A stretch of 21,309 bases of DNA, taken from a virus. Shown piece by piece: positions 1-18,433 of the stretch. Under the pieces are notes generated by a model that was not told the origin of the DNA, did no database searches, and was given only the letters and a program-made list of their open reading frames with translations. Within the stretch, counting starts at the first letter, position 1. Each line of letters opens with the position of its first letter. The position numbers and the translations under genes are program-made. Location: IMG/VR virus record IMGVR_UViG_3300021197_001096, positions 1 through 21,309 of that record. One strand, 5' to 3'.

Positions 1-2
1 CA

Positions 3-152
3 CGCCCACACTGGTCGCTTGTAGAACAGGCGTATCGTAAGGCTGGCCTCTCACGAGATGATGCAATCCAACAGGCAAGGCTGGTGCGAATACTTCGCTG
101 GTCTGATTGGGATGCTGAAAAGGAGACAGTTAAGCTATGGAAACCAAGCTAG
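3..152 (+). CDS. 3' end of an unrecognised gene (partial)
   Basis: An open frame enters from the left edge and ends with TAG at 150-152, giving the last 49 residues of a protein. The tail is rich in tryptophan, arginine and charged residues (for example LVRILRWSDWDAEKE) and looks like a folded C-terminus, not random sequence. It overlaps the start of the next gene by 16 nt, the close packing seen through the rest of this module, which supports real coding. I do not recognise the family. Its position just upstream of DUF3310, methyltransferase and reductase genes suggests a replication or nucleotide-metabolism role, but that is inference only. Confidence 0.55.
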   Translation, partial: RPHWSLVEQAYRKAGLSRDDAIQQARLVRILRWSDWDAEKETVKLWKPS

Positions 153-400
153 ATGAATGGTTAGCAGACCCCTTTGACCAAACACAAATACATGAGCCTA
201 GTCATTATACGCAAGGTGATGTGGAGTGTATCGAAGCCATCAGGTCTGCGTTAGGTAAGGATGGCTTCATAGCCTTTTGCAGAGGCAATGCTATGAAATA
301 TACTTGGCGAATGTTGGATAAGCATGATGATGGCTATGCTGATGCCAATAAAGCAAAGAAATACCTCGATTGGATAATAGAGGAACTGGATGCTGAATGA
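137..400 (+). CDS. DUF3310 family protein
   Basis: An 87-residue protein whose middle and end carry the DUF3310 pattern: HYTQGDVECIEAI (about residues 23-35), then FCRGNAMKYTWRM (about 47-59) and a closing KAKKYLDWIIEEL helix. DUF3310 proteins are frequent in tailed phages. A domain of this type occurs in the T7 gene 1.7 product, which is known as a nucleotide kinase, so a role in nucleotide supply is possible, but no catalytic residues can be assigned from the sequence. The gene overlaps the partial gene upstream by 16 nt and the methyltransferase downstream by 11 nt, so all three are probably translated from one transcript. The length is normal for the short form of the family. Confidence 0.85.
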   Translation: METKLDEWLADPFDQTQIHEPSHYTQGDVECIEAIRSALGKDGFIAFCRGNAMKYTWRMLDKHDDGYADANKAKKYLDWIIEELDAE

Positions 401-944
401 TCAGCACATCCCATTCCCAACAAGCAAATTCAACATAATCTATGCAGACCCACCTTGGACATACCGTGTCTGGGGTAAGAAAGGTGAGGGTAGGTCAGCC
501 GCATCTCATTACGATGTGATGGACTTGAGCGACATCAAAGCTCTACCAGTTCAGGACATTGCAGAGGAAGACTGCGTTCTGTTCATGTGGGCTACCTACC
601 CCAACCTTCGGGAAGCCTTTGAAGTCCTAGATGCATGGGGCTTTACCTACAAAACTGTCGCCTTCACTTGGGTGAAGAAGAACAAAGTCAGCGATAGCTG
701 GTTCTGGGGCATGGGCTATTGGTCAAGAGCCAATGCAGAGATTTGCTTGTTAGCCACTAAAGGCAAACCAAAACGTGCATCGACCAAAGTACATCAGGTG
801 GTCGATGCGAGAATAATGAAACACTCCCAAAAGCCAGACGAGGTTCGTGACCGCATAGTGCAACTGTGTGGTGATAAACCACGCATTGAACTGTTCGCAA
901 GGCAACCAGCGACAGGCTGGGTCAGTTGGGGCAACGAACTTTGA
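390..944 (+). CDS. MT-A70 family adenine methyltransferase
   Basis: A 184-residue protein with the MT-A70 signature: IIYADPPWTYR puts the catalytic DPPW at residues 20-23. It is followed by HYDVMDLSDIKALPV, by LFMWATYPNLREAFEVLDAWGF and by the closing KHSQKPDEVRD and RIELFARQPATGW blocks. Known phage and bacterial members transfer a methyl group from S-adenosylmethionine to the N6 of adenine in DNA. The target of this one cannot be read from sequence. The ATG at 390 has AGAGGA just upstream (379-384) inside the DUF3310 gene, and the two frames overlap by 11 nt. The stop at 942-944 lies 7 nt before the reductase start. The protein is compact, with no extra recognition domain, so specificity may be loose. 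A role in protecting phage DNA or modulating host methylation is inference. Confidence 0.93.
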   Translation: MLNDQHIPFPTSKFNIIYADPPWTYRVWGKKGEGRSAASHYDVMDLSDIKALPVQDIAEEDCVLFMWATYPNLREAFEVLDAWGFTYKTVAFTWVKKNKVSDSWFWGMGYWSRANAEICLLATKGKPKRASTKVHQVVDARIMKHSQKPDEVRDRIVQLCGDKPRIELFARQPATGWVSWGNEL

Positions 945-951
945 GGACAGG

Positions 952-2601
952 ATGACATTTAGAAACAAATTCAGTGAAGACATATTCAATCTTAAATACC
1001 GCCACGAGGGCTGTGAGACTTGGCCGCAACTAGCGTCAACGCTGGTGCATGAGGTCTGTGATGGGCTGATGCCCAAGTCAGAAGTAGAACAGTTGGTGCA
1101 GTATGTAGTGGATATGAAGTTCTTAGCTGGTGGTCGCTATCTTTGGTACGCAGGGCGACCACTTAAATACTACAACAATTGCTTCCTATTAAAGGCTGAA
1201 GAAGACACAAGAGAAGATTGGGCAACACTAGCCCACAAGGTTACATCAGCCCTTATGTCAGGTGGCGGTGTGGGCGTAGACTACTCAGTCTATCGCGCAC
1301 AGGGCAGTCCATTGAAGCGTTCTGGTGGGCTAGCATCAGGCACACTACCCATGATGAACCTAGTCAATAATATTGGCAGGAACGTGATGCAGGGCGGCTC
1401 TAGACGCTCCGCAATGTACGCCAGTCTGCATTGGAAGCATGGTGATGTGGAAGACTTCCTAGATATGAAGAACTGGGCTGACATGGCTATTGGTGACACC
1501 ACTATAGCCAAACTGAAACAGGCCGACTTCAACTTCCAAGCACCAATGGATATGACCAATATCTCTGTGAACTACGACACAGAATGGCAGGACAACTATT
1601 GGAAGACAGGTGAGGTTGGCGATGTGTTCATGAAGAACATAAAGCAAGCTTTGTCTACTTCAGAGCCTGGACTCTCTTTCAATTACATGAAGGACGCAGA
1701 AACCCTTCGCAACGCCTGTTGTGAAGTGACAAGCGCAGATGCAGATGACGTATGTAACTTAGGAAGCGTTAACATGAGTAGAATTGAGAGCATCTCTGAG
1801 TTTGCTGATGTCGTCAATCTGGCTACCAAGTTCCTGCTTTGCGGAACTATTAGAGGGCATGTGCCCTACGAAGCAATCGCTAAAACACGAGAAAAGAATA
1901 GAAGGCTGGGTCTTGGCCTCATGGGTTTACATGAGTGGCTGATCCAGCGAGGAGAAAGATATGAAGTTACCCCTGAGTTACATAAATGGCTCTACGTTTA
2001 TAAAACAGTGTCGGATACTGTCTCTAGAACTTTTGCAGACGAGTGTTCTGTTAGTCGCCCTGTTGCTAATCGGGCTATCGCTCCAACTGGTTCTATTGGC
2101 ATCTTGGCTGGCACTAGCACTGGGGTCGAGCCGATCTTTGCTGTCGCCTATAAGAGACGCTATCTTAAGGGTGGTACACGATGGCACTACCAGTATGTTG
2201 TGGACAGTGCCGCACAAGACCTCATCGAAAGATATGGGGCAGACCCAGACAAAATAGAGAGTGCACTTGACCTTGCGGCCGACCCAGAACGCAGGATGAA
2301 GTTCCAAGCAGATGTGCAAGACTATGTGGACATGGCAATCTCATCCACCATCAACCTACCTGCATGGGGAAGTAAGCTAAATAACGAAGATACTGTAGAA
2401 CCCTTCGCACATATGTTGGCTAAGTACGCCCACAGACTGCGTGGCTTTACCTGCTATGCTGATGGGAGTAGGGGTGGCCAGCCATTGACTGCCGTGCCTT
2501 ACTCTGAAGCCAGCAACAGACAGGGTGAGGAAATCGAAGAGTTGGTGGAAACACATGATATCTGTGACATCACAGGTCATGGTGGTTCATGTGGGGTATA
2601 G
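952..2601 (+). CDS. nrdJ: Class II (adenosylcobalamin-dependent) ribonucleotide reductase
   Basis: A 549-residue reductase that converts ribonucleotides to deoxyribonucleotides. The active-site cysteine pair is visible as C77 (YNNCFLL) and C268 (VCNLGSVNM). The N-x-C-x-E radical site is N254, C256, E258 (NACCEV), the PTGS loop is at 378-381, and C538 and C547 at the tail fit the reducing cysteines. The C-terminal core reads CYADGSR (501-507), the class II pattern, where class I enzymes have the paired tyrosines that pass a radical from the beta subunit. No nrdB is seen nearby. I chose ATG 952 because GAGGA (943-947) precedes it. A longer in-frame extension to 868 would lie inside the methyltransferase gene and add no family sequence. 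There is no ATP-cone at the N-terminus, so activity regulation by dATP is probably absent. Confidence 0.92.
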   Translation: MTFRNKFSEDIFNLKYRHEGCETWPQLASTLVHEVCDGLMPKSEVEQLVQYVVDMKFLAGGRYLWYAGRPLKYYNNCFLLKAEEDTREDWATLAHKVTSALMSGGGVGVDYSVYRAQGSPLKRSGGLASGTLPMMNLVNNIGRNVMQGGSRRSAMYASLHWKHGDVEDFLDMKNWADMAIGDTTIAKLKQADFNFQAPMDMTNISVNYDTEWQDNYWKTGEVGDVFMKNIKQALSTSEPGLSFNYMKDAETLRNACCEVTSADADDVCNLGSVNMSRIESISEFADVVNLATKFLLCGTIRGHVPYEAIAKTREKNRRLGLGLMGLHEWLIQRGERYEVTPELHKWLYVYKTVSDTVSRTFADECSVSRPVANRAIAPTGSIGILAGTSTGVEPIFAVAYKRRYLKGGTRWHYQYVVDSAAQDLIERYGADPDKIESALDLAADPERRMKFQADVQDYVDMAISSTINLPAWGSKLNNEDTVEPFAHMLAKYAHRLRGFTCYADGSRGGQPLTAVPYSEASNRQGEEIEELVETHDICDITGHGGSCGV

Positions 2602-2621
2602 CTACTGGTGATTGTGCCATA

Positions 2622-2663
2622 GCCATCGGACATTATGCTTATGCCATCGGACATTTAAGCAAT
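2622..2663 (+). repeat. Tandem 21-bp direct repeat downstream of the reductase
   Basis: Two adjacent 21-bp units (2622-2642 and 2643-2663) share a perfect 13-bp core, GCCATCGGACATT, and then diverge. They sit between the reductase stop and a promoter-like sequence, about two helical turns apart, so they could be a protein-binding site. No function is shown. Confidence 0.6.
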
Positions 2664-2691
2664 AAAAACAACGATTTATGTCGTTTTATAC

Positions 2692-2719
2692 TTGCCATAA
2701 CCGTTTCTTTGGTTACACT
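2692..2719 (+). promoter_or_regulatory. Sigma70-like promoter candidate for the small ORF and RNA
   Basis: TTGCCA (2692-2697) and TACACT (2714-2719) are separated by 16 bp, matching 5 of 6 and 4 of 6 of the bacterial -35 and -10 consensus. The site follows the 21-bp repeats and lies about 30 nt upstream of the start codon of the 52-residue ORF. It would drive that ORF and the folded RNA behind it. Pattern evidence only. Confidence 0.4.
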
Positions 2720-2748
2720 GAATACAGTTATTAATTAAGGAGATGGTT

Positions 2749-2907
2749 ATGGAAGAGTTTAGGTTTGTTCAGACAGCAGAAGACCATATCAAACTGGCTA
2801 TAGAGTGTCTGCTTACAGATACTAAAGCTAGTAGAGAAGAAGCACTCGAATACTTGTTGGAGATACAGGAGCGAACAGCAGGTCAGAAGTTCCCTGAGTT
2901 TAAATAA
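2749..2907 (+). CDS. Small hypothetical protein (52 aa)
   Basis: A 52-residue ORF with a good ribosome site, AAGGAG at 2737-2742, 6 nt before the ATG. An in-frame ATG at 2743 abuts the ribosome site and is less likely. The product is largely helical by eye, acidic and leucine-rich (for example EEALEYLLEIQERT near residues 30-43), without membrane segment or signal peptide. I do not recognise the family. It stands alone between a promoter-like site and a folded RNA with terminator, so it may form a short separate transcript. Small proteins in such positions in phages often act on host functions, but nothing here shows that. Confidence 0.6.
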   Translation: MEEFRFVQTAEDHIKLAIECLLTDTKASREEALEYLLEIQERTAGQKFPEFK

Positions 2908-2909
2908 AG

Positions 2910-3036
2910 GTGAGCCTGAGCCGTTGATAGTGTTAATGGCAAAACCAACATAACTACGTTTAGGAGGTAGTGGCTCAGGTCACATCTCCCAATTGCAATT
3001 CCTATGCCTCACTGAGAAATCAGTGGGGCTTTTTTT
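2910..3036 (+). ncRNA. Candidate structured RNA ending in a Rho-independent terminator
   Basis: Beginning 2 nt after the stop of the small ORF, GTGA+CCTGAGCC (2910-2913 and 2915-2922) pairs with GGCTCAGG+TCAC (2972-2983), a 12-bp helix with one bulged G. Inside it, ACTAC (2953-2957) pairs with GTAGT (2967-2971) and stacks directly on the outer helix. Its loop contains AGGAG. A weaker hairpin forms around 2932-2949. The element is followed by a strong terminator (3006-3036) and then by a gene on the opposite strand, so it does not lead into a + strand gene. It could be a 3'-UTR-derived small RNA, a free-standing RNA or a stabilising 3' end. I match it to no known class. Confidence 0.5.
3006..3036 (+). 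terminator. Strong Rho-independent terminator
   Basis: The 10-bp stem GCCTCACTGA / TCAGTGGGGC (3006-3015 and 3020-3029, one G-T wobble) closes a GAAA tetraloop and is followed by seven T (3030-3036). There is no T-run on the other strand, so it acts in the + direction only. It closes the early/metabolism transcript before the minus-strand gene. Confidence 0.93.
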
Positions 3037-3054
3037 CGCCTATTTACTTAGAAT

Positions 3055-3078
3055 GGGTAAACCTAAAGCGGTTTGCCC
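3055..3078. other. Hairpin at the 3' end of the minus-strand gene
   Basis: GGGTAAACC (3055-3063) pairs with GGTTTGCCC (3070-3078) around a 6-nt loop: nine base pairs with one wobble. It covers the stop codon of the minus-strand gene. Neither strand has a T-run behind it, so it is not a classical terminator, but it could stabilise the minus-strand mRNA end or help separate convergent transcription. Confidence 0.45.
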
Positions 3079-3371
3079 TTGAGTGCGAAATACAACTGTT
3101 CGCCAAGGTAGTCTGCTACCAACTGATATTCCTGTATTAGCTGTTGTTCATGTGAGAGAGATTCCCATACATCTGGCAGAAACTCTCTGCAATACTCAGT
3201 GACTCTGACTTTCAGAGAACCCTGAATAACAACCATGTCTCTAGGTTCTTGAGGTTGGTGTTTCTTGTACATCCTCAACATAGTCTCACTCATTCTACCC
3301 CACAGAATTTGTTTATGCTGTGGGTCGTCAAAGTGGATAGCTATAGCAACAACCGCATCCTCTAGGTTCAT
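3063..3371 (-). CDS. Hypothetical protein on the opposite strand (102 aa)
   Basis: A 102-residue minus-strand ORF with balanced composition and no membrane segment. It starts at ATG 3371 and ends with TAG at 3065-3063. The product looks helical, with EYCREFLPDVWESLSHEQQL (about residues 59-78) and LVADYLGEQLYFALKGKPL at the end. I do not recognise the family. It is the only well-supported gene on this strand and is bounded by the + strand terminator on one side and the repeat-rich region on the other. An isolated, oppositely oriented gene between early and late blocks is the place where phages often keep a regulator, but no DNA-binding motif is visible. The ribosome site is weak. Confidence 0.6.
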   Translation of the reverse strand: MNLEDAVVAIAIHFDDPQHKQILWGRMSETMLRMYKKHQPQEPRDMVVIQGSLKVRVTEYCREFLPDVWESLSHEQQLIQEYQLVADYLGEQLYFALKGKPL

Positions 3372-3550
3372 ATGTCCAAATCTTCTGGGTCAGGTCTGTA
3401 CTTTGGAGCAAAGAAAAACGCCCTACATCAGTGGCTCTTTATCCTGCAATACCAAAGATTGCCGCGAGATCCAGTCAGTAGGACGTTTGTTCTTTATATG
3501 CAATATATATGCATTTTGTTTACATCTGACAACATATTTACACAAGTTAA

Positions 3551-3580
3551 CCCATATTTTCCCATATTTGCCTATATTTA
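3551..3580 (+). repeat. Three tandem 10-bp AT-rich repeats
   Basis: Consecutive decamers CCCATATTTT, CCCATATTTG and CCTATATTTA occupy exactly 30 bp, so equivalent bases recur about once per helical turn on the same face of the DNA. This spacing is typical of DNA-unwinding elements and of arrays bound by initiator or regulatory proteins, but function is not shown. Confidence 0.65.
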
Positions 3581-3591
3581 GACACATCAGT

Positions 3592-3650
3592 TCAAAGGTT
3601 GGCCTTATAGACAAACATAGCGTCCTCAAAGGTTGGGCTTATAGATAAAC
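3592..3650 (+). repeat. 25-bp direct repeat, two copies 34 bp apart
   Basis: Copy one is 3592-3616 and copy two 3626-3650. They match at 23 of 25 positions (core TCAAAGGTTGG, then CTTATAGA and AAAC). They lie just downstream of the tandem decamers and before ACTTAAGT. They may be iteron-like binding sites or duplicated phage promoters. No good -35/-10 pair fits at normal spacing. Confidence 0.7.
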
Positions 3651-3868
3651 TTAAGTGGTCTAATGTGACGACTACTTAGAATGAAATCGTAATTGAGTGG
3701 AACTTAAGTAAGGCGGTTTTAATTGGTCGTTTTATGCAAGCCAAGCAAGCCCAAGAACACTTGAGAATACCACTGCTATCCATAAGAAATAGCGTGAGAT
3801 AGGCCTTTGCCTTCTTTGGTGGGCATAAGTGGCGAAAGATGAGCCTTCTCTTGGTCTTTGTCGTTTAA

Positions 3869-3885
3869 TAATCATTGTATGATTA
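3869..3885. promoter_or_regulatory. Operator-like inverted repeat overlapping a -10-like hexamer
   Basis: TAATCAT (3869-3875) and ATGATTA (3879-3885) form a perfect 7-bp inverted repeat with a 3-nt centre, and TATGAT (3878-3883, 5 of 6 to the -10 consensus) lies within its right half. A short ORF with AGAGGAA at its ribosome site begins at 3908. The -35 region is poor, so this is a weak candidate. Confidence 0.3.
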
Positions 3886-4243
3886 GTGTAGAACAAAAGA
3901 GGAACGAATGTCAAGTTCCGCTCCCGATTTTGCAAGAAGAGAAAATGCCCTGTCCAGATAAATTTCAGACATAGCCAAGCCTAATGTCTCAGAACCCCTA
4001 AGATGATAGGGGGTGGGGGTAGGTCAAGTGAGCAACTATCACATTACATTACAGCAAATTCAGTCACTTAGCATGACCGAGGTATTTCAAGCGACACTTT
4101 GGCAGGGACTCCAGCCAGAATTTGCACCCCCCATGCGTTGAGATTCAAATTGACTTCAAAATCTGACGCTTTGTTGGGTGTTGCTGTTGTTGTTGTCTGT
4201 CGCTCTCAAGCAGAGGCCACCCCAGAAAACAAAGGAAAAACCA

Positions 4244-5155
4244 TTGCCCTTAGAAACTACAGCTAACTTTATCAATGGGCTGAATATCAATAATCCAGCC
4301 TCTACAGACGGCATCCAAGACGCAGACAATCATTTGAGACTTATAAAGTCTGCAATCAAGAATACCTTTCCCAATATTGCTGGCGCAGTAAATGCGACAC
4401 ATACAGAACTCAATACTGTGGCAGATGGTGGTACAGCGGCAACAGCTACAACCCTCGTGAACGCAGATAGAATGGTCATGAATGACGATGGCACTATGGT
4501 GCAAGTCGCACTGTCTGACCTCATTACTTACCTAGCCTCAAACCTAAGTGTCACAAGTTCCATGATCACCAATGGCACTATAACGAACGATGACATTGCA
4601 AACGGTACTATTACTGGCTCTAAGCTAGCCGCAGGTTCTTTGTTTTCCTCTGGGATGATTGTACCTTTTGCAGGTTCAACAGCCCCAAGCGGATGGCTAA
4701 TGTGCTTTGGACAGGATGTCTCACGCACAATCGAGGCCAGCCTATTTACTGCAATAGGAAGCACCTACGGGGCAGGGGATGGCTCAACCACATTTAACGT
4801 TCCTGATTTGCGTGGTCGTGTAATTGCGGGTCAGGACGACATGGGGGGCGTGTCTGCTAACAGGCTTTTAGGTGTGACAGGGTCTGTTGATGGAGATAGC
4901 TTGGGGTCTACAGGGGGCAATGAAACCCACACTTTGACCACCGCTGAAATGCCATCACACAATCACTCAGGTACAGTTGACCTCCGCACTAACTGGGAAG
5001 CTGGAACATCCAGCCTATCCCCAGTTGGAACTGGAAGTGCGAGATATGACGGGAGTGCCTCACAGCCGACTTTGAGTATCTCAAATACTGGTGGCGGGAG
5101 TGCACATCCAAACGTGCAACCAACAATCATTCTGAATTACCTAATCAAAACTTAG
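4244..5155 (+). CDS. Tail fibre / tail-collar domain protein
   Basis: A 303-residue structural protein. The N-terminus (ETTANFINGLNINNPAST, then DADNHLRLIKSAIKNTFPNI) matches the opening of many phage collar-fibre proteins. A Phage Tail Collar domain follows at about residues 135-192 (GMIVPFAGSTAPSGW through FNVPDLRGR). A histidine cluster PSHNH (237-241) and a terminal NVQPTIILNYLIKT complete the family pattern, and in some relatives such histidines bind metal in a trimer. I chose the TTG at 4244: AAGGA (4232-4236) sits 7 nt upstream and homologous sequence begins there. The longer GTG start at 4178 would add a low-complexity leucine run with no ribosome site. It is the first gene of the late block, and its stop overlaps the ribosome site of the next gene. 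Its likely role is in the distal tail or host binding. Confidence 0.85.
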   Translation: MPLETTANFINGLNINNPASTDGIQDADNHLRLIKSAIKNTFPNIAGAVNATHTELNTVADGGTAATATTLVNADRMVMNDDGTMVQVALSDLITYLASNLSVTSSMITNGTITNDDIANGTITGSKLAAGSLFSSGMIVPFAGSTAPSGWLMCFGQDVSRTIEASLFTAIGSTYGAGDGSTTFNVPDLRGRVIAGQDDMGGVSANRLLGVTGSVDGDSLGSTGGNETHTLTTAEMPSHNHSGTVDLRTNWEAGTSSLSPVGTGSARYDGSASQPTLSISNTGGGSAHPNVQPTIILNYLIKT

Positions 5156-5165
5156 AGGTGTCGCT

Positions 5166-6794
5166 ATGGCTTCAGCAACTTTGCCTGTGCGTGACCTTGG
5201 TAGCATTGGGCTAGTTACAGATATTGACCCATATAACCTTCCTATCAACGGGTTCACCACAGCCGATAACATCAGGTTTGACGAGGGTAAGGTAAAAAGG
5301 TCTGTATTATTTAGAACAGTCAAAGATAGCTTGGGGTTTACCCCTAGAGCTTGTTTTGGGGTCGTACCTCCTACTGGTTTCGATACAGTTCTAGTGGTCA
5401 GTGACAATTGGGTTATCAATGAGTATGCAAATAATGCCCTAACCAATAGGTCAGGCAGTATTACTGGCAGTTCCAGCCCCAAACCCTACACGATTAACTC
5501 ACTTGCTGATGTCGTATATATAAACAGGCCAGACAGAGTGCCAGTTTACAGACTTCCTAGTGGCACAAACTTTTCTGACTTAACGAACTGGGATAGTAAC
5601 TGGCGTTGCGAGGCAATGCGTCCTTTCGGGGAATTTCTGATGGCCTTAAATGTCACAGAAACCAACACTAACTATCCAAACAGAATACGGTTTTCAAACA
5701 TCGTTCAAGCTAATGCTATTCCCGATAGTTGGGATGCTACTGATGCAACAAAATCAGCGGGATTTGTTGATTTAGTCCAAATGCAGACCCCTATAAAAGA
5801 TGGTCTGGAATTGGGGTCTAATTTCCTAATTTATAGCTCTAGTGAAGTATTTAGCATGGATTTTGTTGGGGGCAGTCTGCTATTTTCATTTCGCAAATTG
5901 TTCAGTGACGATGGGGTTATTAATCAAAACTGTATTGTAGAAGCGGATGGTAAACATTTCGTCTTTGGCAACAGTGATATTTACACAACAGACGGTAATA
6001 CTAAAATATCAGTAGCCGATAAGCGCATACGACAGTCAGTCTACAAATCTTTGAACGTAAAGAACTCTGACAGATGTTTTGTTCAGCATAATAAGGTGCT
6101 AAGTGAAATCTATTTTTGCTTTCAGGCTGGCGACAGCACAGTCAATTTTCCAAATACCACGAGATGTAATAGAGCGGCTGTTCTAAATTACCGTGATAAC
6201 ACTTGGAGCATGATTGACCTTCCCAATGTCAGTTCAGGCACAACTGCCAATGTTGATACAGTCACCACATACGCAGACGCTACAGAAACATATGAAACAA
6301 TAGGTGGTACATTTCACGATCAGGAAGATAGCTTCAATCGTCACACTTTGATGATAGGCCAGAATGATACTGATAATGGCATTACCTCTGACAAACTTTA
6401 TGCATTGGATTTATCCGACAGCGGGTCATCTGTTGCTTTTGCTATAGACACTCAAGCAACTAAGCCCCCTGTTTTAGAGCGAGTAGGCATTGATTTAGAT
6501 GAAACTGGTCAAAGTATTGATGGCTATAAAGTGCTCACGCGGGTTCTACCTCAGTTTGCTACACTCAATCAGGACAATACTAACGTAACCTTTGAGTTTG
6601 GCGCATCAGATATACCAAGTGACGTACCAACATATGGCGCACCTGTAACCTTCAACATTGCGTCTGACTATAAGCTAGATTCCAGAGCATCTGGACGATA
6701 TCTAAGCTACAAAATTACATTAGATGCCAATGATTATAAAGATTTCAGCTTCTCAGGAATGGATTTCGACATTTCTACCACAGGGGCGAAGTGA
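5166..6794 (+). CDS. P22 gp10-like packaged-DNA stabilisation / tail accessory protein
   Basis: A 542-residue beta-rich protein. The N-terminal block LPVRDLGSIGLVTDIDPYNL followed by FTTADNIRFDEGKVKRS is the recurring opening of phage stabilisation proteins, which plug the portal and form part of the tail hub in P22-like phages. The C-terminus (GRYLSYKITL then DFSFSGMDFDI) also fits, resembling the repeated closing domain of that group. ATG 5166 has AGAGGT at its ribosome site, overlapping the stop of the collar gene. The stop at 6792-6794 overlaps the next start by 1 nt, so the two are coupled. Assignment to the general family is fairly good. The exact equivalence to P22 gp10 is inference. 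Confidence 0.65.
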   Translation: MASATLPVRDLGSIGLVTDIDPYNLPINGFTTADNIRFDEGKVKRSVLFRTVKDSLGFTPRACFGVVPPTGFDTVLVVSDNWVINEYANNALTNRSGSITGSSSPKPYTINSLADVVYINRPDRVPVYRLPSGTNFSDLTNWDSNWRCEAMRPFGEFLMALNVTETNTNYPNRIRFSNIVQANAIPDSWDATDATKSAGFVDLVQMQTPIKDGLELGSNFLIYSSSEVFSMDFVGGSLLFSFRKLFSDDGVINQNCIVEADGKHFVFGNSDIYTTDGNTKISVADKRIRQSVYKSLNVKNSDRCFVQHNKVLSEIYFCFQAGDSTVNFPNTTRCNRAAVLNYRDNTWSMIDLPNVSSGTTANVDTVTTYADATETYETIGGTFHDQEDSFNRHTLMIGQNDTDNGITSDKLYALDLSDSGSSVAFAIDTQATKPPVLERVGIDLDETGQSIDGYKVLTRVLPQFATLNQDNTNVTFEFGASDIPSDVPTYGAPVTFNIASDYKLDSRASGRYLSYKITLDANDYKDFSFSGMDFDISTTGAK

Positions 6795-11655: not shown

Positions 11656-11931
11656 ATGCAGGTAACTGCTATCGACCTGTTGGCCTACGCTGACAGGCTT
11701 GAACGCTTGCAAGCATCAAACTGGAGTGACCATGAAAAACGGTTGGTAGCACAGGACATTTTGAAGTCCTTTCCGCAACCCGCCTACTGTGTTCACAACA
11801 TTGAAACCAGACTGATTGTTGCAAGAAAATATGAGGATTACATCAATGGGTTCACAACCAAAGAAGCCCAGAGCGAAAAGCCCAAGCAAAAAAGGGTCAG
11901 GAAAACACCCACAAAAAGCCCCAAAGCGTAA
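11656..11931 (+). CDS. Hypothetical protein upstream of small terminase (91 aa)
   Basis: A 91-residue protein with a helical body (LLAYADRLERLQASNWSDHE, about residues 8-27) and a very basic tail (EKPKQKRVRKTPTKSPK). AAGGAGA directly precedes the ATG. Its last 86 nt overlap the start of the small terminase gene in another frame, and both frames encode lysine-rich segments there. I do not recognise the family. Its position next to the terminase genes suggests a DNA-binding or packaging-related role, supported only by the charge of its tail. Confidence 0.65.
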   Translation: MQVTAIDLLAYADRLERLQASNWSDHEKRLVAQDILKSFPQPAYCVHNIETRLIVARKYEDYINGFTTKEAQSEKPKQKRVRKTPTKSPKA

Positions 11932-12346
11932 CTACTTCTCAGATTTGATGAAGACAGAAGAGGGCAGGGCATTGCGAAGGAAGTGGTCAACCAAACCACG
12001 CAAAAACGCTGGGCGACCCAGAGGTGTGCCTGATGGTTATACAAGAGAGCAGATAGAACCCATCAGAGCAAAAGTTAAACAAGAAGCGAAGAGGATAGTC
12101 GAGATTATGAGCAAAGAATACTCTATCGAGGACGAGTATGCGAAAGCGGCTCTAGAAACAGCAGTTGAAGTCATGAAGGTAGTTGGCGACAACAGAGAAA
12201 GAGTTGCGGCCGCTCGTCTCGTCCTAGATTTCACCAAAAGCCGTCCAGTCACCAAAAGTGAGATGGCCATTAGCAAAGCAGAGGATTTTCTTGCTGGTTT
12301 GCTAGATGAAGATGAAGATGGACAAGAAACTAAAGGCAGTTCGTAA
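11846..12346 (+). CDS. terS: Putative small terminase subunit
   Basis: A 166-residue protein. The N-terminal 35 residues are lysine-rich, followed by KPRKNAGRPRGVPDGYT (about residues 54-70), whose GRPRG is an AT-hook-like minor-groove motif. The rest is a helical region (about 75-135) and an acidic end (LLDEDEDGQE). Small terminases bind phage DNA, form rings and hand DNA to the large subunit. The gene lies immediately upstream of the large terminase and overlaps it by 41 nt. I chose ATG 11846 because GAGGA (11833-11837) sits 8 nt before it. ATG 11948 has no ribosome site. Position and DNA-binding features support the call, but sequence similarity alone does not prove it. Confidence 0.65.
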   Translation: MGSQPKKPRAKSPSKKGSGKHPQKAPKRNYFSDLMKTEEGRALRRKWSTKPRKNAGRPRGVPDGYTREQIEPIRAKVKQEAKRIVEIMSKEYSIEDEYAKAALETAVEVMKVVGDNRERVAAARLVLDFTKSRPVTKSEMAISKAEDFLAGLLDEDEDGQETKGSS

Positions 12347-13889
12347 ACGCCTTTATGACGATTTTAGCTTCTACTCTAAATCTGCTCTTAAGATTAGAAC
12401 AAAATCGGGCGAAATAGCCCCACTTAATCTAAACCCAGCACAACAAATCCTTCAGGACGCCATAGACAAACAAATGGCATCAGAAGGTAAAATCAGGATC
12501 ATCATTCTAAAGGCACGACAGCAAGGTTTGTCCACTATGGTGGGCGGCTACCTTTATTTCTCTGTGAGCCAAAACAAAGCGCGAAAAGCTATGGTGATTT
12601 CTCACACTGCCGATAGCACAAGATCGCTTTTTGATTTAGGGAAACGCTATCACGACAACTGCCCAGAAATACTTAAGCCACACACCAAATACAGTTCCAG
12701 AAGAGAACTATCATTTGATGTGCTTGATAGTAGCTACATTGTGGCTACAGCAGGTGGTGATGCAGTAGGACGAGGCGAGACAATCAGTCACCTTCACGCA
12801 TCAGAATTGGCGTTTTGGCCAAAATCAACAGCAGGTGAAATCTGGAATGGTTTGACACAAGCTGTGCCTAATGAGCCTAACACAGCAGTTTTTGTTGAAA
12901 GCACTGCAAATGGCGTCAGTGGTGTATTTTATGACCTTTGGCAGGGGGCTTGTAAGGGCGAGAATGGTTATGTGCCAGTGTTTATTCCTTGGTTTACAGA
13001 TCCAACTTATAGAGAAGATGTGCCAGCTAACTTCGAGCGAACACCAGAGGAAGAAGAACTGGTGGAAGAATATGGGCTTGATGATGAACAGCTTATGTTT
13101 CGTAGGCGCAAGATAGCCCAGAATGGCATCGACCTTTTTATGCAGGAATATCCTGCGACCCCTGACGAAAGTTTCCTTACATCTGGACGACCTGTGTTTA
13201 ACCCAGAACAGCTTCAGAAATGTCTTACTAACACAAGAGATATCGAGCAGAAGCTGGCTTTGGAAGGCGATGAATGGATGCCAAACCACAGGGGCGAACT
13301 GCAAATATACAGACCACTAGATGATGGAGAAAGATATGTCATTGGGGCAGATTCTTCAATGGGCGTCAGAAATGGAGACTACTCAGTTGCACAAGTCCTC
13401 GACAGTCAGAAAAGGCAAGTCGCAACATGGCGTGGCCATGTCCATCCCGACTACTTTGCTGAAATCCTTTATGCGCTGGGGATGTATTACAATGAAGCGT
13501 TTATCATTGTGGAGAACAATTCACATGGCATCCTTACCTGCACAAGGCTGGGCAAAGATATGTCCTATCCGAACTTTTACACAGAAGTGCAAATGGACAA
13601 ACTCACAGAAAAAGAAACTGTCAGATTGGGTTTCAGCACAACCAGTAAGACCAAACCACTGGTTATAGACCAGCTTCGTGCCTCAATGCGAGAGGATGAG
13701 TTGAAACTAAACGACAAAACAACCATCAGAGAAATGCTCACCTACGTTGTCACTGAAACAGGGTCAATGGAAGCAGAGGCTGGATGTCATGATGACTGCG
13801 TTATGTCGCTGGCATTAGCTAATCACGTTCATGAAGGTGCATGGACACCCATAGAACAGCCGCAGGGCATTTACCTAGAGATGATATAA
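12306..13889 (+). CDS. terL: Large terminase subunit (DNA-packaging ATPase/nuclease)
   Basis: A 527-residue packaging motor that pumps DNA into the procapsid and cuts it. The ATPase shows a Walker A-like KARQQGLST (69-77), a Walker B region HLHASE with the catalytic glutamate at 167, and the coupling motif ESTANG (198-203). The RNase H-like nuclease shows IGADSS (D349), IIVENNSHG (E403) and CHDDCVMSLALA (D496, D497). All expected acidic residues are present, so it should be active. Three in-frame ATGs lie at 12306, 12312 and 12318 within a short repeat, and none has a clear ribosome site. I keep the first, and translation is probably coupled to the small terminase, which it overlaps by 41 nt. 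The stop is followed 1 nt later by the portal start. Confidence 0.95.
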   Translation: MKMKMDKKLKAVRKRLYDDFSFYSKSALKIRTKSGEIAPLNLNPAQQILQDAIDKQMASEGKIRIIILKARQQGLSTMVGGYLYFSVSQNKARKAMVISHTADSTRSLFDLGKRYHDNCPEILKPHTKYSSRRELSFDVLDSSYIVATAGGDAVGRGETISHLHASELAFWPKSTAGEIWNGLTQAVPNEPNTAVFVESTANGVSGVFYDLWQGACKGENGYVPVFIPWFTDPTYREDVPANFERTPEEEELVEEYGLDDEQLMFRRRKIAQNGIDLFMQEYPATPDESFLTSGRPVFNPEQLQKCLTNTRDIEQKLALEGDEWMPNHRGELQIYRPLDDGERYVIGADSSMGVRNGDYSVAQVLDSQKRQVATWRGHVHPDYFAEILYALGMYYNEAFIIVENNSHGILTCTRLGKDMSYPNFYTEVQMDKLTEKETVRLGFSTTSKTKPLVIDQLRASMREDELKLNDKTTIREMLTYVVTETGSMEAEAGCHDDCVMSLALANHVHEGAWTPIEQPQGIYLEMI

Positions 13890-13890
13890 T

Positions 13891-15924
13891 ATGGCAAAAA
13901 TAGATGACTATCAGCCAATGAGCGATGAGGACATCCTCAAAGCACTGGATGTGAACATCAAAAGTGCTATCGGTTTCTATGATTCCGAATTGAGCAAAGA
14001 GCGTAAGAAAGTCACTGACTACTATAACGCTTCACTTCCACGCCCCCAGCATGACGGCAATTCTAAATACATCAGTCAAGATGTCTATACTGGTGTGCAA
14101 GCAATGACAGCAAACCTGTTGGAAACATTCTCAGCGGGTTCAAAAATCATAAAGTTTAGCCCAATAGGGCAAGAAGACATCGAAATGGCTAGGGTTTGCT
14201 CCAGTTACACTGAGCATGTCCTTTTCAAAATGAATGACGGGCTGTCTGTTTTCCAAAGCGTGATAATGGATGGCTTGATGGCCAGAGTAGGGGTCTGCAA
14301 AGCCTTCTGGGAACAACGCTCAGAGTTTCAAGAAGAGGAATTTAGTGACCTGACATCAGACCAGCTAGATTTAATTCTGGCCGATGAAGATGTAACACTT
14401 TTAGAGAGTGATACTGACGAAACTGGTTTGTTATTTGGCACGATTGAGCGTGAGATAGACACATCACAAGTCTGCATTATGCCAGTGCCACCAGAAGAGT
14501 TCATTATAGAGCCACAGGCTAAATCTTTAGAGGATGTAGACTTCGTAGCACATAGAACCACCAAGAGCCTCACTCAATTACGGCAAATGGGCTATGACGA
14601 AGAGAAAATATCAAACATTAGTGATGATGAAAGCACTAGCCTTGAAACAGACCCTGAAATCCTAGCCAGATTTGAGAATATTGGTGCAAGCAGAAAGAAC
14701 GATGCTTATGGCTACATAGACCAAGTACGAGAAGTGATGGTTTATGAAAGCTTTATTCGGTTGGATGTAGAAGGCACAGGCGAAGCCGTCTTGCATAAGG
14801 TTTGCAAGGCTGGCAACCAAATCCTAGAGATTGAAAAGGTAGACAGACTGCCATTTATGGTATTCTGCCCACTACCTACGCCACATAGCTTCTTTGGCTC
14901 TAGCTTTGCTGAAAAGCTAATTCCAACACAAAATGCAAAGACTGTGTTAACTCGTGGAGTGCTTGACCATACTGTTATAGCAAATACGCCTAGATATATA
15001 GTCACCAAAGGCGCAGTGGTTTCGCCCAGAGAAATTACCGATGCTAGAGTGGGTGGGATCATCAATACAACCAGACCTGATGCCATCACACCGATGCCTC
15101 AAGCACCTCTCAATCCTTTCATTTTCCAAACCATAAACATGCTTAACGAGGATGCTGAAGATAAGTCCTCAGTTTCATCTTTGAGCACTGGCTTGAATAA
15201 GGATGTCATTTCCAAGCAAAACTCAGCCCAGATGGTTGAACAGCTTGTGACCATGAGCCAGCAACGCATGAAGATAATGGCTCGTCTGTTCGCACAGCAA
15301 TTTCTAAAGCCATTGGCCTACGAGATTTACAGGCTAGTCGTAGAGAACGAACAGGCTACGAAGATATTCGAGATTGCAGGAAACTTTGTGCCCATTGAGC
15401 CAAGAACATGGGCTGAAAAGCGTGATGTAACAATTGAGATGCATTTGGGTGTGTCTGAACAGGAAAAAGAGGTTCAGAAGCATCTATCAATGCACACACT
15501 TATGACGCAAGACCCATCTCTTGCGCCTCTGTATAGTTTAGAGAACCGCTATAACATGATGAAGGCAGTTTTAGAGGCTCAAGGTATTCTGAATGTTGAC
15601 GAATACCTTACTAATCCAGCTATGCTTCCACCACCACAGCCTGACCCTGCACAGCAAATGCAGATGGCAATGGCAGAAAAGCAACTGGAAATCCAAGAGC
15701 GTCAAACTCAGGTGGCCGAAAACAAGGTCACACTGGATGCTCAAAAGGCACAGGAAAAAGCTGAACTGGATGCGGCAAAGGCAGAAGCCCAATTTGCATT
15801 ACAGGCAGACCAACAAGACCTGAAAGAAGAACAATTCGCCCACAAGAAACGAATAGACGAAGGCGAACTTGAACTTCTGCGCCAAACCGATGACCTGCGT
15901 GGGATAGCAAGCCCAACAGGCTAA
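13891..15924 (+). CDS. Portal protein (P22/SU10-like podovirus type)
   Basis: A 677-residue portal, the dodecameric ring at the head vertex through which DNA enters and leaves. Recognisable blocks are ADYYNASLP-like VTDYYNASLPRPQHDGNSKY (about residues 42-61), then VYTGVQAMTANLLETF, VCIMPVPPEEFIIEP and MVFCPLPTPHSFFGSSFAE. A long helical, glutamine/alanine-rich coiled-coil tail follows from about 575, PDPAQQMQMAMAEKQLEIQE onward. The length is close to that of P22-type portals (around 700), which also end in an extended helical barrel. It begins 1 nt after the large terminase stop and is followed by the scaffold region, the standard order of head-assembly genes. No protease or other fused domain is seen. 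Confidence 0.88.
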   Translation: MAKIDDYQPMSDEDILKALDVNIKSAIGFYDSELSKERKKVTDYYNASLPRPQHDGNSKYISQDVYTGVQAMTANLLETFSAGSKIIKFSPIGQEDIEMARVCSSYTEHVLFKMNDGLSVFQSVIMDGLMARVGVCKAFWEQRSEFQEEEFSDLTSDQLDLILADEDVTLLESDTDETGLLFGTIEREIDTSQVCIMPVPPEEFIIEPQAKSLEDVDFVAHRTTKSLTQLRQMGYDEEKISNISDDESTSLETDPEILARFENIGASRKNDAYGYIDQVREVMVYESFIRLDVEGTGEAVLHKVCKAGNQILEIEKVDRLPFMVFCPLPTPHSFFGSSFAEKLIPTQNAKTVLTRGVLDHTVIANTPRYIVTKGAVVSPREITDARVGGIINTTRPDAITPMPQAPLNPFIFQTINMLNEDAEDKSSVSSLSTGLNKDVISKQNSAQMVEQLVTMSQQRMKIMARLFAQQFLKPLAYEIYRLVVENEQATKIFEIAGNFVPIEPRTWAEKRDVTIEMHLGVSEQEKEVQKHLSMHTLMTQDPSLAPLYSLENRYNMMKAVLEAQGILNVDEYLTNPAMLPPPQPDPAQQMQMAMAEKQLEIQERQTQVAENKVTLDAQKAQEKAELDAAKAEAQFALQADQQDLKEEQFAHKKRIDEGELELLRQTDDLRGIASPTG

Positions 15925-17288: not shown

Positions 17289-18433
17289 ATGGCAACCTAC
17301 TCAACCTATGATCAGGTGGGTATCAAAGAAGATGTCAGTGACATCATCATGGACATTAGTTAGTGGTGTCCTTTTTGCGTAAGCAATCAAAACAAACTGT
17401 GTGAAAACAGGGAACACCTAGAACAGGCAATCCTGTGCCAAGCCCCGTAAGGGGAAGGTGCAACGACTATCCAGCAATGGAGTAGGGTCAAGCGACCCGA
17501 AGCGCACAGCCCCAATACATGGGAGAAGATATAGTCTGAACTGGCTAGGGATAGCCAGCAGTCCACTATGGGCGGTCTGAGGAGTAGCGAACTCAGGCGA
17601 ACAAATGCACACCTACCGACACCCCATTGTTTTCGGCTATCAAAAGCCAGAAAGTAGACAATCGGGTGTATCAATACCAAACAGATGCTCTTGACGCACC
17701 AGCCGCAAATGCGGCAGTGGAAGGGGCTGACCCAACTATGGCAACACTGACTGCCACAACCATGATCAGTGGAAATACGCAGATCCTGACAAAAGCGTTC
17801 CAAGTGAGCGAGTCAGCACAGGCCGTTTCGACCTACGGCAGAGCAAAAGAAGCGGCTTACCAATTGTCTAAAGCATTGAAAAGCTTGAAGAAAGACGTAG
17901 AATTTGCCTATGTTGGCGCATCAAATGCGGCAGTCACAGGCACATCTTCTGTGGCTCGTGAAATGGCATCAGCAGATGTGTTGATTGACTCAACTACTAC
18001 TGTCGATGCTGGTGCTGGTTCAGCAGATGCACTGACTGAAGCCAAGCTAAATGACCTTGGCCAAGCTGTCTACGAAGCAGGTGGTAATCCTGACATTTTC
18101 ATGATCAAGCCAGCCGATAGTCTTATCGTGGCAGGGTTCACTGGAAGTGCAGGTCGTCAGCGTACTTTCAATGACGAAAACAAGACACTCACCAATGCAG
18201 TTGACCTGATTGTTAGCCCATTCGGAAGCTATAAGGTCGTGCTTAACAGAGTGCAGATGTCTACCCACGCCTTCCTGCTAGACCCATCAATGTGGCGTTC
18301 AGCAGTATTGCGTCCATTTACCAGAACACTTCTGGCAAAGACTGGCGACTCTGAGAAGCATTTCCTTTCGTATGAGGGTGGCTTAATGCACCTGAATCCG
18401 AAGGCTTCAGGGATGATTACCCAGTTGTCATAA
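17289..18433 (+). CDS. Major capsid protein, split by a group I intron (join 17289-17356 and 17608-18433)
   Basis: Exon 1 (17289-17356) encodes 22 residues plus two bases of codon 23, and exon 2 (17608-18433) completes a 297-residue protein. Splicing makes ATC from AT|C and restores DITPTDTPLFSAIKS, matching the conserved (S/T)PT(D/E)TP motif near the N-terminus of DUF5309/SU10-type major head proteins. The opening TYDQVGIKEDVSDII also fits that family. Without splicing, translation stops at TAG 17361-17363 after 24 codons. AAGGAA precedes ATG 17289. The TTG at 17627, sometimes taken as a start, has no basis because it lies inside the conserved motif. The product is the HK97-fold shell subunit. 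It follows the scaffold gene directly, and a large hairpin lies after its stop. Confidence 0.92.
17357..17607 (+). ncRNA. Group I intron (subgroup IA-like) in the major capsid gene
   Basis: A 251-nt self-splicing intron candidate. P1: exon GGACAT (17351-17356) pairs with the guide GTGTCC (17366-17371), with the required U-G wobble at the 5' splice site. P2: 17375-17378/17383-17386 with GTAA loop. P3: CTGTGTG (17397-17403) with CGCACAG (17503-17509). P4: ACAGG (17407-17411) with CCTGT (17432-17436), and P5 inside it. P6: CCCC/GGGG with GTAA loop (17443-17454). P7: GACTAT (17465-17470) with ATAGTC (17531-17536). P7.1: GGGTC/GACCC (17485-17498), an extra hairpin typical of IA introns. P8: 17511-17523. 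P9: seven pairs with GGGA loop (17541-17558). A further hairpin lies at 17577-17596. The terminal G is 17607, and CAC of exon 2 can form P10 with 17363-17365. There is no endonuclease ORF. Confidence 0.95.

Follow-up and report, generated by a model that had tools for sequence, protein, structure and literature searches.

A conserved, clade-specific RNA element predicted at the 3' end of the nrdJ/thyX operon in uncultured phages

We describe here a conserved and clade-specific element at a phage operon's 3' end; judged from its sequence, it is a structured RNA. It was studied in what we call the window, the whole 21,309-nucleotide stretch analysed (positions 1-21,309 of the IMG/VR record IMGVR_UViG_3300021197_001096, an uncultured virus). 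Conservation across related contigs is the strongest support for the element, which is probably a working RNA and, according to energy modelling, perhaps one with two shapes. The reading that we favour, with a probability of about 0.42, is that of a small noncoding phage RNA predicted to derive from the operon 3' end.

Comparison of the predicted genes with PHROGs and Pfam gave the window a tailed-phage gene content, which also includes a portal, a scaffold and an SU10-type capsid. The features that matter here are the following, where fold A is a three-way junction (P1, P2 and P3) and fold B is a second, exclusive fold.

952-2601, + strand: nrdJ-like ribonucleotide reductase large subunit, an operon gene (PHROGs/Pfam comparison)
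2589-2738, + strand: 49-aa ORF, spotted by eye, overlapping the end of nrdJ
2749-2907, + strand: p52, a 52-aa ORF whose stop codon ends 2 nt ahead of the closing helix
2910-2922, + strand: 5' arm of the closing helix P1 (2910-2913 and 2915-2922, G2914 bulged)
2923-2949, + strand: hairpin P2, 4-bp base 2923-2926/2946-2949, loop 2927-2945, unchanged in every homologue
2953-2971, + strand: hairpin P3, stem 2953-2957/2967-2971, abutting (stacking on) P1, invariant
2972-2983, + strand: 3' arm of P1 (2972-2979 and 2980-2983; 12 bp in total)
2984-3005, + strand: linker, single-stranded in fold A, 6 nt at its 5' end pairing in fold B
3006-3036, + strand: intrinsic terminator of the operon, stem 3006-3015/3020-3029 (10 bp), loop GAAA, T-run 3030-3036 (T7)
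3063-3371, - strand: ORF
4178-5155: tail collar gene
12306-13889: terminase gene

Isolated phages are distant from this virus. The closest isolate for the reductase is the Roseobacter phage CRP-3 (72.9%) and for the terminase CRP-7 (39.9%), while the tail protein reached 27.7-28.8% among the matches listed; for the collar, one record lies at 60-80% and no record covers 80% of the gene. The p52 protein had no match in PHROGs or Pfam, and its relatives are found in locus L082 (85%, without the element) and in L083 (77%, with the element). The 49-aa ORF, which carries AIGHYAYAIG-type repeats and a hydrophobic tail, has counterparts in L082 (73%) and L083 (62%) and no PHROGs match. Elsewhere in the window, a group I intron (RF00028, 84.2 bits) occupies 17347-17558, and another (79.7 bits) was seen in L299 at 11763-11984 (record G001). 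Both appear to split the SU10-type capsid gene at different places, the window intron preceding the capsid query stretch and that of G001 dividing the same stretch at about residue 58/59. A short noncoding stretch around ATAAATTTCAGA, perhaps a promoter, lies upstream of the collar gene (window 3922-3969, L083 2169-2216, L008 7978-8025) and is 80-89% identical between pairs, in surroundings that blastn could not align.

Three further IMG/VR contigs carry the element, namely 3300003409_000019 (loci L008 and L090), 3300025617_000046 (L111) and 3300021197_001658 (L083, L116 and L207). Because L008 and L111 are near-identical (99.94% over 9,396 bases) they were counted once, which leaves three lineages including the window. 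Carriers were found by protein-anchored and pattern scans of viral contigs, with the nrdJ and tail scans each taking the best 80 loci. The pattern scans returned 31, 4, 12 and 21 stretches, of which 2, 3, 3 and 3 were the element, and an nhmmer search of the window plus 276 loci (277 sequences) gave full-length matches in 8 entries that represent the 4 contigs. Model R1, run on 83, 91, 6 and 30 sources, recovered the same contigs only, its best other match being the terminator of L006 at 23.3 bits; its scope was without L001, L084-L089, L091-L110, L112-L115, L128-L196, L292-L300 and L319, and among these loci nhmmer covered all except L292-L297. Of 6 records, 4 have the element, each with a single copy in the same place and orientation.

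Over the 90 nt of junction and linker, 87 positions in L083 and 88 in L008 are identical to the window (96.7-97.8%). Just upstream, the window and L083 agree at 107/138 (77.5%) and 121/160 (75.6%) positions, or 76.5% of the 298 nt together, and after the terminator agreement falls to 24/70 with L083 and 27/69 with L008. The terminator stem itself is identical at 19/24 (L083) and 21/24 (L008) positions. Differences within the junction and linker are confined to the bulged base (G or A), one base at the foot of P1, where a U-A pair of two versions is mismatched in the window, and a few linker bases, since 2984-2993 and 2995-2999 are invariant and only the remaining linker positions vary. Consequently, 26 of the 27 junction pairs never vary among these three near-identical sequences and the 27th is the pair mismatched in the window; the single two-sided change, A-U to G-C, is in the terminator stem. 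The earlier note had proposed covariation as a check and worded its absence as counting against the idea, but three near-identical sequences leave nothing to covary and the check, once run, was uninformative.

Direct reading of the letters showed that 2910-2983 is able to fold as a three-way junction, a closing helix with two hairpins, in agreement with the earlier note, which had described a closing helix of 12 bp, bulged once, around two hairpins, one of them stacked on that helix and with AGGAG in its loop; the P3 loop (2958-2966) is GUUUAGGAG and presents AGGAG. With boundaries picked to suit the element, 2905-2990 has a minimum free energy of -29.3 kcal/mol (z -3.18; 2/200 shuffles as good) and 2909-2985 one of -29.0 kcal/mol (0/1000 shuffles as good, and likewise 0/1000 for the L008 version). 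When the 95 nt ahead of the terminator were cut out blind, z was -1.85 in the window, -1.68 in L008 and -2.37 in L083 (100 shuffles each), and the same cut of L006, without the element, gave -2.3, so carriers do no better by this measure. At the same gene junction, 26 chosen loci yielded 9 terminators, and the 95 nt preceding these had z from -2.37 to 0.35. Nor is a 12-bp closing helix rare by itself, as the window has 1 against a mean of 0.42 in 60 whole-window shuffles, 20 of which have at least one. Folded alone or with its terminator, the element formed P1 with a probability of 0.99-1.00 in all three versions. Two copies of the window element, when cofolded, gained 9.5 kcal/mol through linker-linker pairs, and L008 is, by eye, without that palindrome. 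Pairing of the loop GGAG with the linker CUCC inside fold A was considered and judged by reasoning to be impossible in cis, because the 12-bp helix lies beneath the loop and only about 2 nt of the linker can be spared.

In all 4 contigs the element follows the last stop codon of the nrdJ/thyX operon and precedes the operon's terminator, the distance from stop codon to closing helix being 1 nt in L083, 2 nt in the window and 6 nt in L008 and L111. The last gene differs, being thyX in L008 and L111 and p52 in the window and L083, and the element's place is unchanged. The strong terminator that had been reported after the junction was borne out, and it ranks first among the 9 sites listed for 1-6000 (4.6 expected), with 10 pairs. 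The absence of a + strand gene downstream, also part of the earlier description, holds for the window as far as about 4178, and none such follows in L008 or L111; it fails for L083, where a 323-aa + strand ORF begins 27 nt past the T-run. The statement that the element is not a leader for a following gene stands for the window, L008 and L111 and cannot be made of L083. The L083 gene (831-1802) has no PHROGs match; it is 34% identical to a post-terminator gene of L004 (7608-8486) and was not found in the window or L008.

Presence of the element is patchy. Among 31 table rows in which a collar match is preceded by a match to the reductase, thyX or p52, 4 have the element, which represent two phages, and 27 lack it, with many of the reductase matches at only 21-27%. 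L082 lacks it next to its 52-aa ORF; at the expected site (about 5160-5240) a minus-strand helix of about 10 bp with a T-run after it was noticed by eye. In L004, L005 and L006, whose reductases are 84-85% identical, a terminator lies 14-50 nt past the end of the thyX alignment and the junction is absent, which suggests from the sequences that the terminator is probably the older part.

The same letters can form fold B, in which the purine loop pairs with the downstream linker, an internal partner missing from the earlier note. Once P1 opens, the GGAG and CUCC letters do pair, and the fold consists of two hairpins.

2920-2940, + strand: HP-A, 9 pairs, loop AGU; excludes P1 and P2
2963-2989, + strand: HP-B, GGAGGU and GUGGC with GUCAC and AUCUCC, loop UCAG; excludes P1 and P3

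On 2907-3005 the energies are -28.2 kcal/mol for fold A and -24.3 kcal/mol for fold B, and neither uses the letters of the terminator stem. When 2740-3045 was folded whole, both the minimum free energy structure and the centroid were the two-hairpin fold and not the junction. In the window the probability of P1 went from 1.00 alone to 0.65, 0.10 and 0.00 with 100, 200 and 400 nt of upstream sequence, whereas in L008 and L083 it stayed at 1.00 at all six upstream lengths, which counts against a general context switch, since the switch is seen in the window alone. When sequences were redealt keeping fold A, an alternative as good arose in 41/2000 and 39/2000 cases, and with stems kept and loops redealt in 32/2000. 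These modelled values are suggestive of a fold B better than chance at about the 2% level, for a fold chosen after it had first been seen. Shuffles of HP-A, HP-B and 2920-2989 alone were as good in 0, 0 and 2 of 1000, figures biased by the post hoc picking of these pieces.

Conservation can be read against both folds. Of the positions in 2910-2990, 39 are unpaired in the outer helices of fold A, and 21 of these pair in fold B, which explains part of the invariance of loop and linker. However, 17 of the 18 positions unpaired in both folds are also invariant, and this pattern in the sequence suggests a sequence-specific partner for the element as well.

A ribosome at a stop codon covers the mRNA to about +16 from the P-site codon. 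Ribosome blocking was computed on one energy model with this general footprint. With blocking to +16, HP-B formed with a probability of 1.00 in the window, 1.00 in L083 and 0.59 in L008; to +19 it was 1.00 in all three; to +13 it was 0.99, 1.00 and 0.05, respectively, and to +10 at most 0.14. Loss of fold A upon blocking of P1 is trivial and the quality of fold B alone is informative. Formation of fold B under blocking would make sense of the closeness of the element to the stop codon.

Pairing of the exposed letters with phage mRNA, as had been proposed, was unsupported on the phages' own start sites in the window and in G001. A crude ORF picker with a score cut gave 18 sites in the window, where the pseudo-ORF at 2970 was left out, and 37 in G001, where its counterpart at 15267 was kept. 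Shuffles as good as the linker numbered 22/300 in the window, a weak signal, and 149/300 in G001; the corresponding counts were 75/300 and 48/300 for the P2 stretch and 178/300 and 260/300 for the P3 stretch. In L083, AUCUCC matches by eye the Shine-Dalgarno of p52 and CAUAACUA matches the p52 start; antisense action on phage start sites was nevertheless rejected, as the L008 and L111 records, which may be fragments, are without a p52 match and the general pairing test failed. A GTG frame at 2970 was judged not to be a gene, with a Shine-Dalgarno word only 2 nt ahead and a course that, in each of the three versions, runs through the terminator and then diverges. The near-total identity of the element leaves no visible codon pattern by which to assess protein coding. 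A promoter-like site at 2692-2719 ahead of p52, inside a small ORF in the window, has a counterpart in L083 (459-486), and promoter-like sites were no commoner than in shuffles (6 versus 9.9 and 5 versus 5.2).

Rfam release 15 had no family at gathering threshold over the element, consistent with the class having been called unknown. The best weak match, and the sole hit at E<0.01, was Spot 42 RNA (RF00021; E 0.00081 in a 181-base search), with 28 bits against a cut-off of 80; it covers 2950-3037 instead of the whole junction, and its alignment indicates that it relies on the terminator. ARAGORN on the window gave no tRNA or tmRNA match at the element. Isolate-phage records had no match save 30 terminator letters in a microvirus, and plasmid records nothing like the element beyond terminator letters. 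One gapped pattern run on 84,980 bacterial and archaeal genomes returned 6 stretches, all chance by eye and by model R1; a diverged genome copy could escape that pattern, which requires both loops. The titles and abstract openings of the literature matches listed do not name the element.

The small-RNA reading is favoured by the shuffle result for fold A, the conservation relative to the flanks, the constant place despite a differing last gene, the invariant unpaired positions, the quality of fold B, the blocking results and the precedent of phage phiKZ, and it is weakened by the lack of junction covariation and of start-site pairing, by promoter sites no commoner than chance and by the patchy presence. 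As the anatomy suggests, transcription would run from nrdJ, through thyX where present and the small ORFs, into the element and halt at the terminator. The last 125 nt or so (2910-3036) would remain once the transcript is cut near the stop codon, or would arise from an operon-internal promoter. Once freed from the upstream mRNA, it is computed to adopt fold A, exposing AGGAG and AUCUCCC, and the exposed letters may then act on host RNA or an RNA-binding protein. On the mRNA, a ribosome at the stop codon, given the general footprint, would hide the 5' arm of P1 and leave fold B, in which the AGGAG and AUCUCCC stretches are paired. A fully ribosome-gated RNA, where the finishing ribosome holds a closed form with the Shine-Dalgarno word paired to an anti-Shine-Dalgarno stretch, and where the end of translation or cutting of the 3' piece frees a junction that exposes both and acts on host RNAs or ribosomes, would go further, and on the modelling we consider it a long shot. 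The strongest alternative, still an unlikely one in our judgement, is a cis-acting 3' UTR in which element and terminator protect or process the operon mRNA, possibly through the ribosome at the last stop, and nothing acts in trans. The core helix 1-6 nt from the stop codon in every carrier, the preference for fold B under ribosome-like blocking and the two exclusive folds, which account for the 21 of 39 positions without an outside partner, all agree with it; the invariance of the doubly unpaired positions and of linker 2990-2993 and 2995-2999 does not, and L004, L005 and L006 keep operon and terminator without the element.

Were the element a decoy or docking RNA, its AGGAGGU, which is a Shine-Dalgarno word with no mismatch, would bind the 30S subunit or some RNA-binding protein, or else titrate a host sRNA rich in CU. 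This would explain the invariant loop, and 2953-2974 pairs with a standard 16S tail sequence at -11.6 kcal/mol (7 pairs, a value with no control and with the opening cost left out). However, the last two letters of AGGAGGU are in the P3 stem, fold B gives the word a partner within the element and AGGAG occurs 22 times over both strands of the window, and we regard this explanation as improbable. Lower still we place a DNA feature, such as a site of recombination or replication or a repeat that was inserted and has inverted ends; the sharp identity step at the borders and the patchy presence would suit it, but the element is a single copy of constant place and orientation and is absent from plasmids and isolate phages beyond terminator letters. 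It is hardly credible that the fold serves as an attenuator or riboswitch gating read-through into a next gene: two exclusive folds exist, and a gene does follow the terminator closely in L083, with a homologue after that of L004, but neither fold touches the terminator stem, the same-strand gene directly downstream is seen in L083 and not in the window, L008 or L111, and L004 has gene and terminator with no junction. We give equally little credence to recent exchange between phages, instead of constraint, as the source of the identity. The thyX genes of L083 and L008 are 92% identical over 375 nt against 78% in the tail region, so these two do share recent DNA beside the site, but between the window and L083 identity is about 76% as far as the element's edge, between the window and L008 it is 72% in the reductase gene, and exchange would need to stop at the element borders in both pairs.

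Taken as a small phage RNA, the element stands out through conservation alone in uncultured phages, and it provides a model open to testing, together with a sequence and two folds that compete. Should it act in trans or respond to translation of the operon, it would link phage nucleotide genes to the control of host or phage RNA. Described phage noncoding RNAs are few, with 21 counted in one 2021 paper (PMC8545117). That paper describes two phiKZ RNAs of similar size from intergenic or UTR sequence, and the element resembles these RNAs, which are about 100-180 nt, UTR-derived or intergenic and from a lytic phage, with no convincing ORF reported. The phiKZ RNAs were seen by Northern blot and Grad-seq, whereas the present element is known from its sequence. 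VpdS, PreS, c4 and CfrI are, as proposed for the element, phage-encoded sRNAs (PMC12197685), a likeness checked through Rfam only. These four differ in having proposed targets or roles, and c4 and CfrI are antisense RNAs; c4 likely presents in loops the letters with which it pairs, acting around a ribosome-binding site, and a phage metabolic gene carries CfrI at its 3' end. Since UTR-derived phage RNAs are already known (PMC8545117, PMC12197685), the element would be a new family of a known type.
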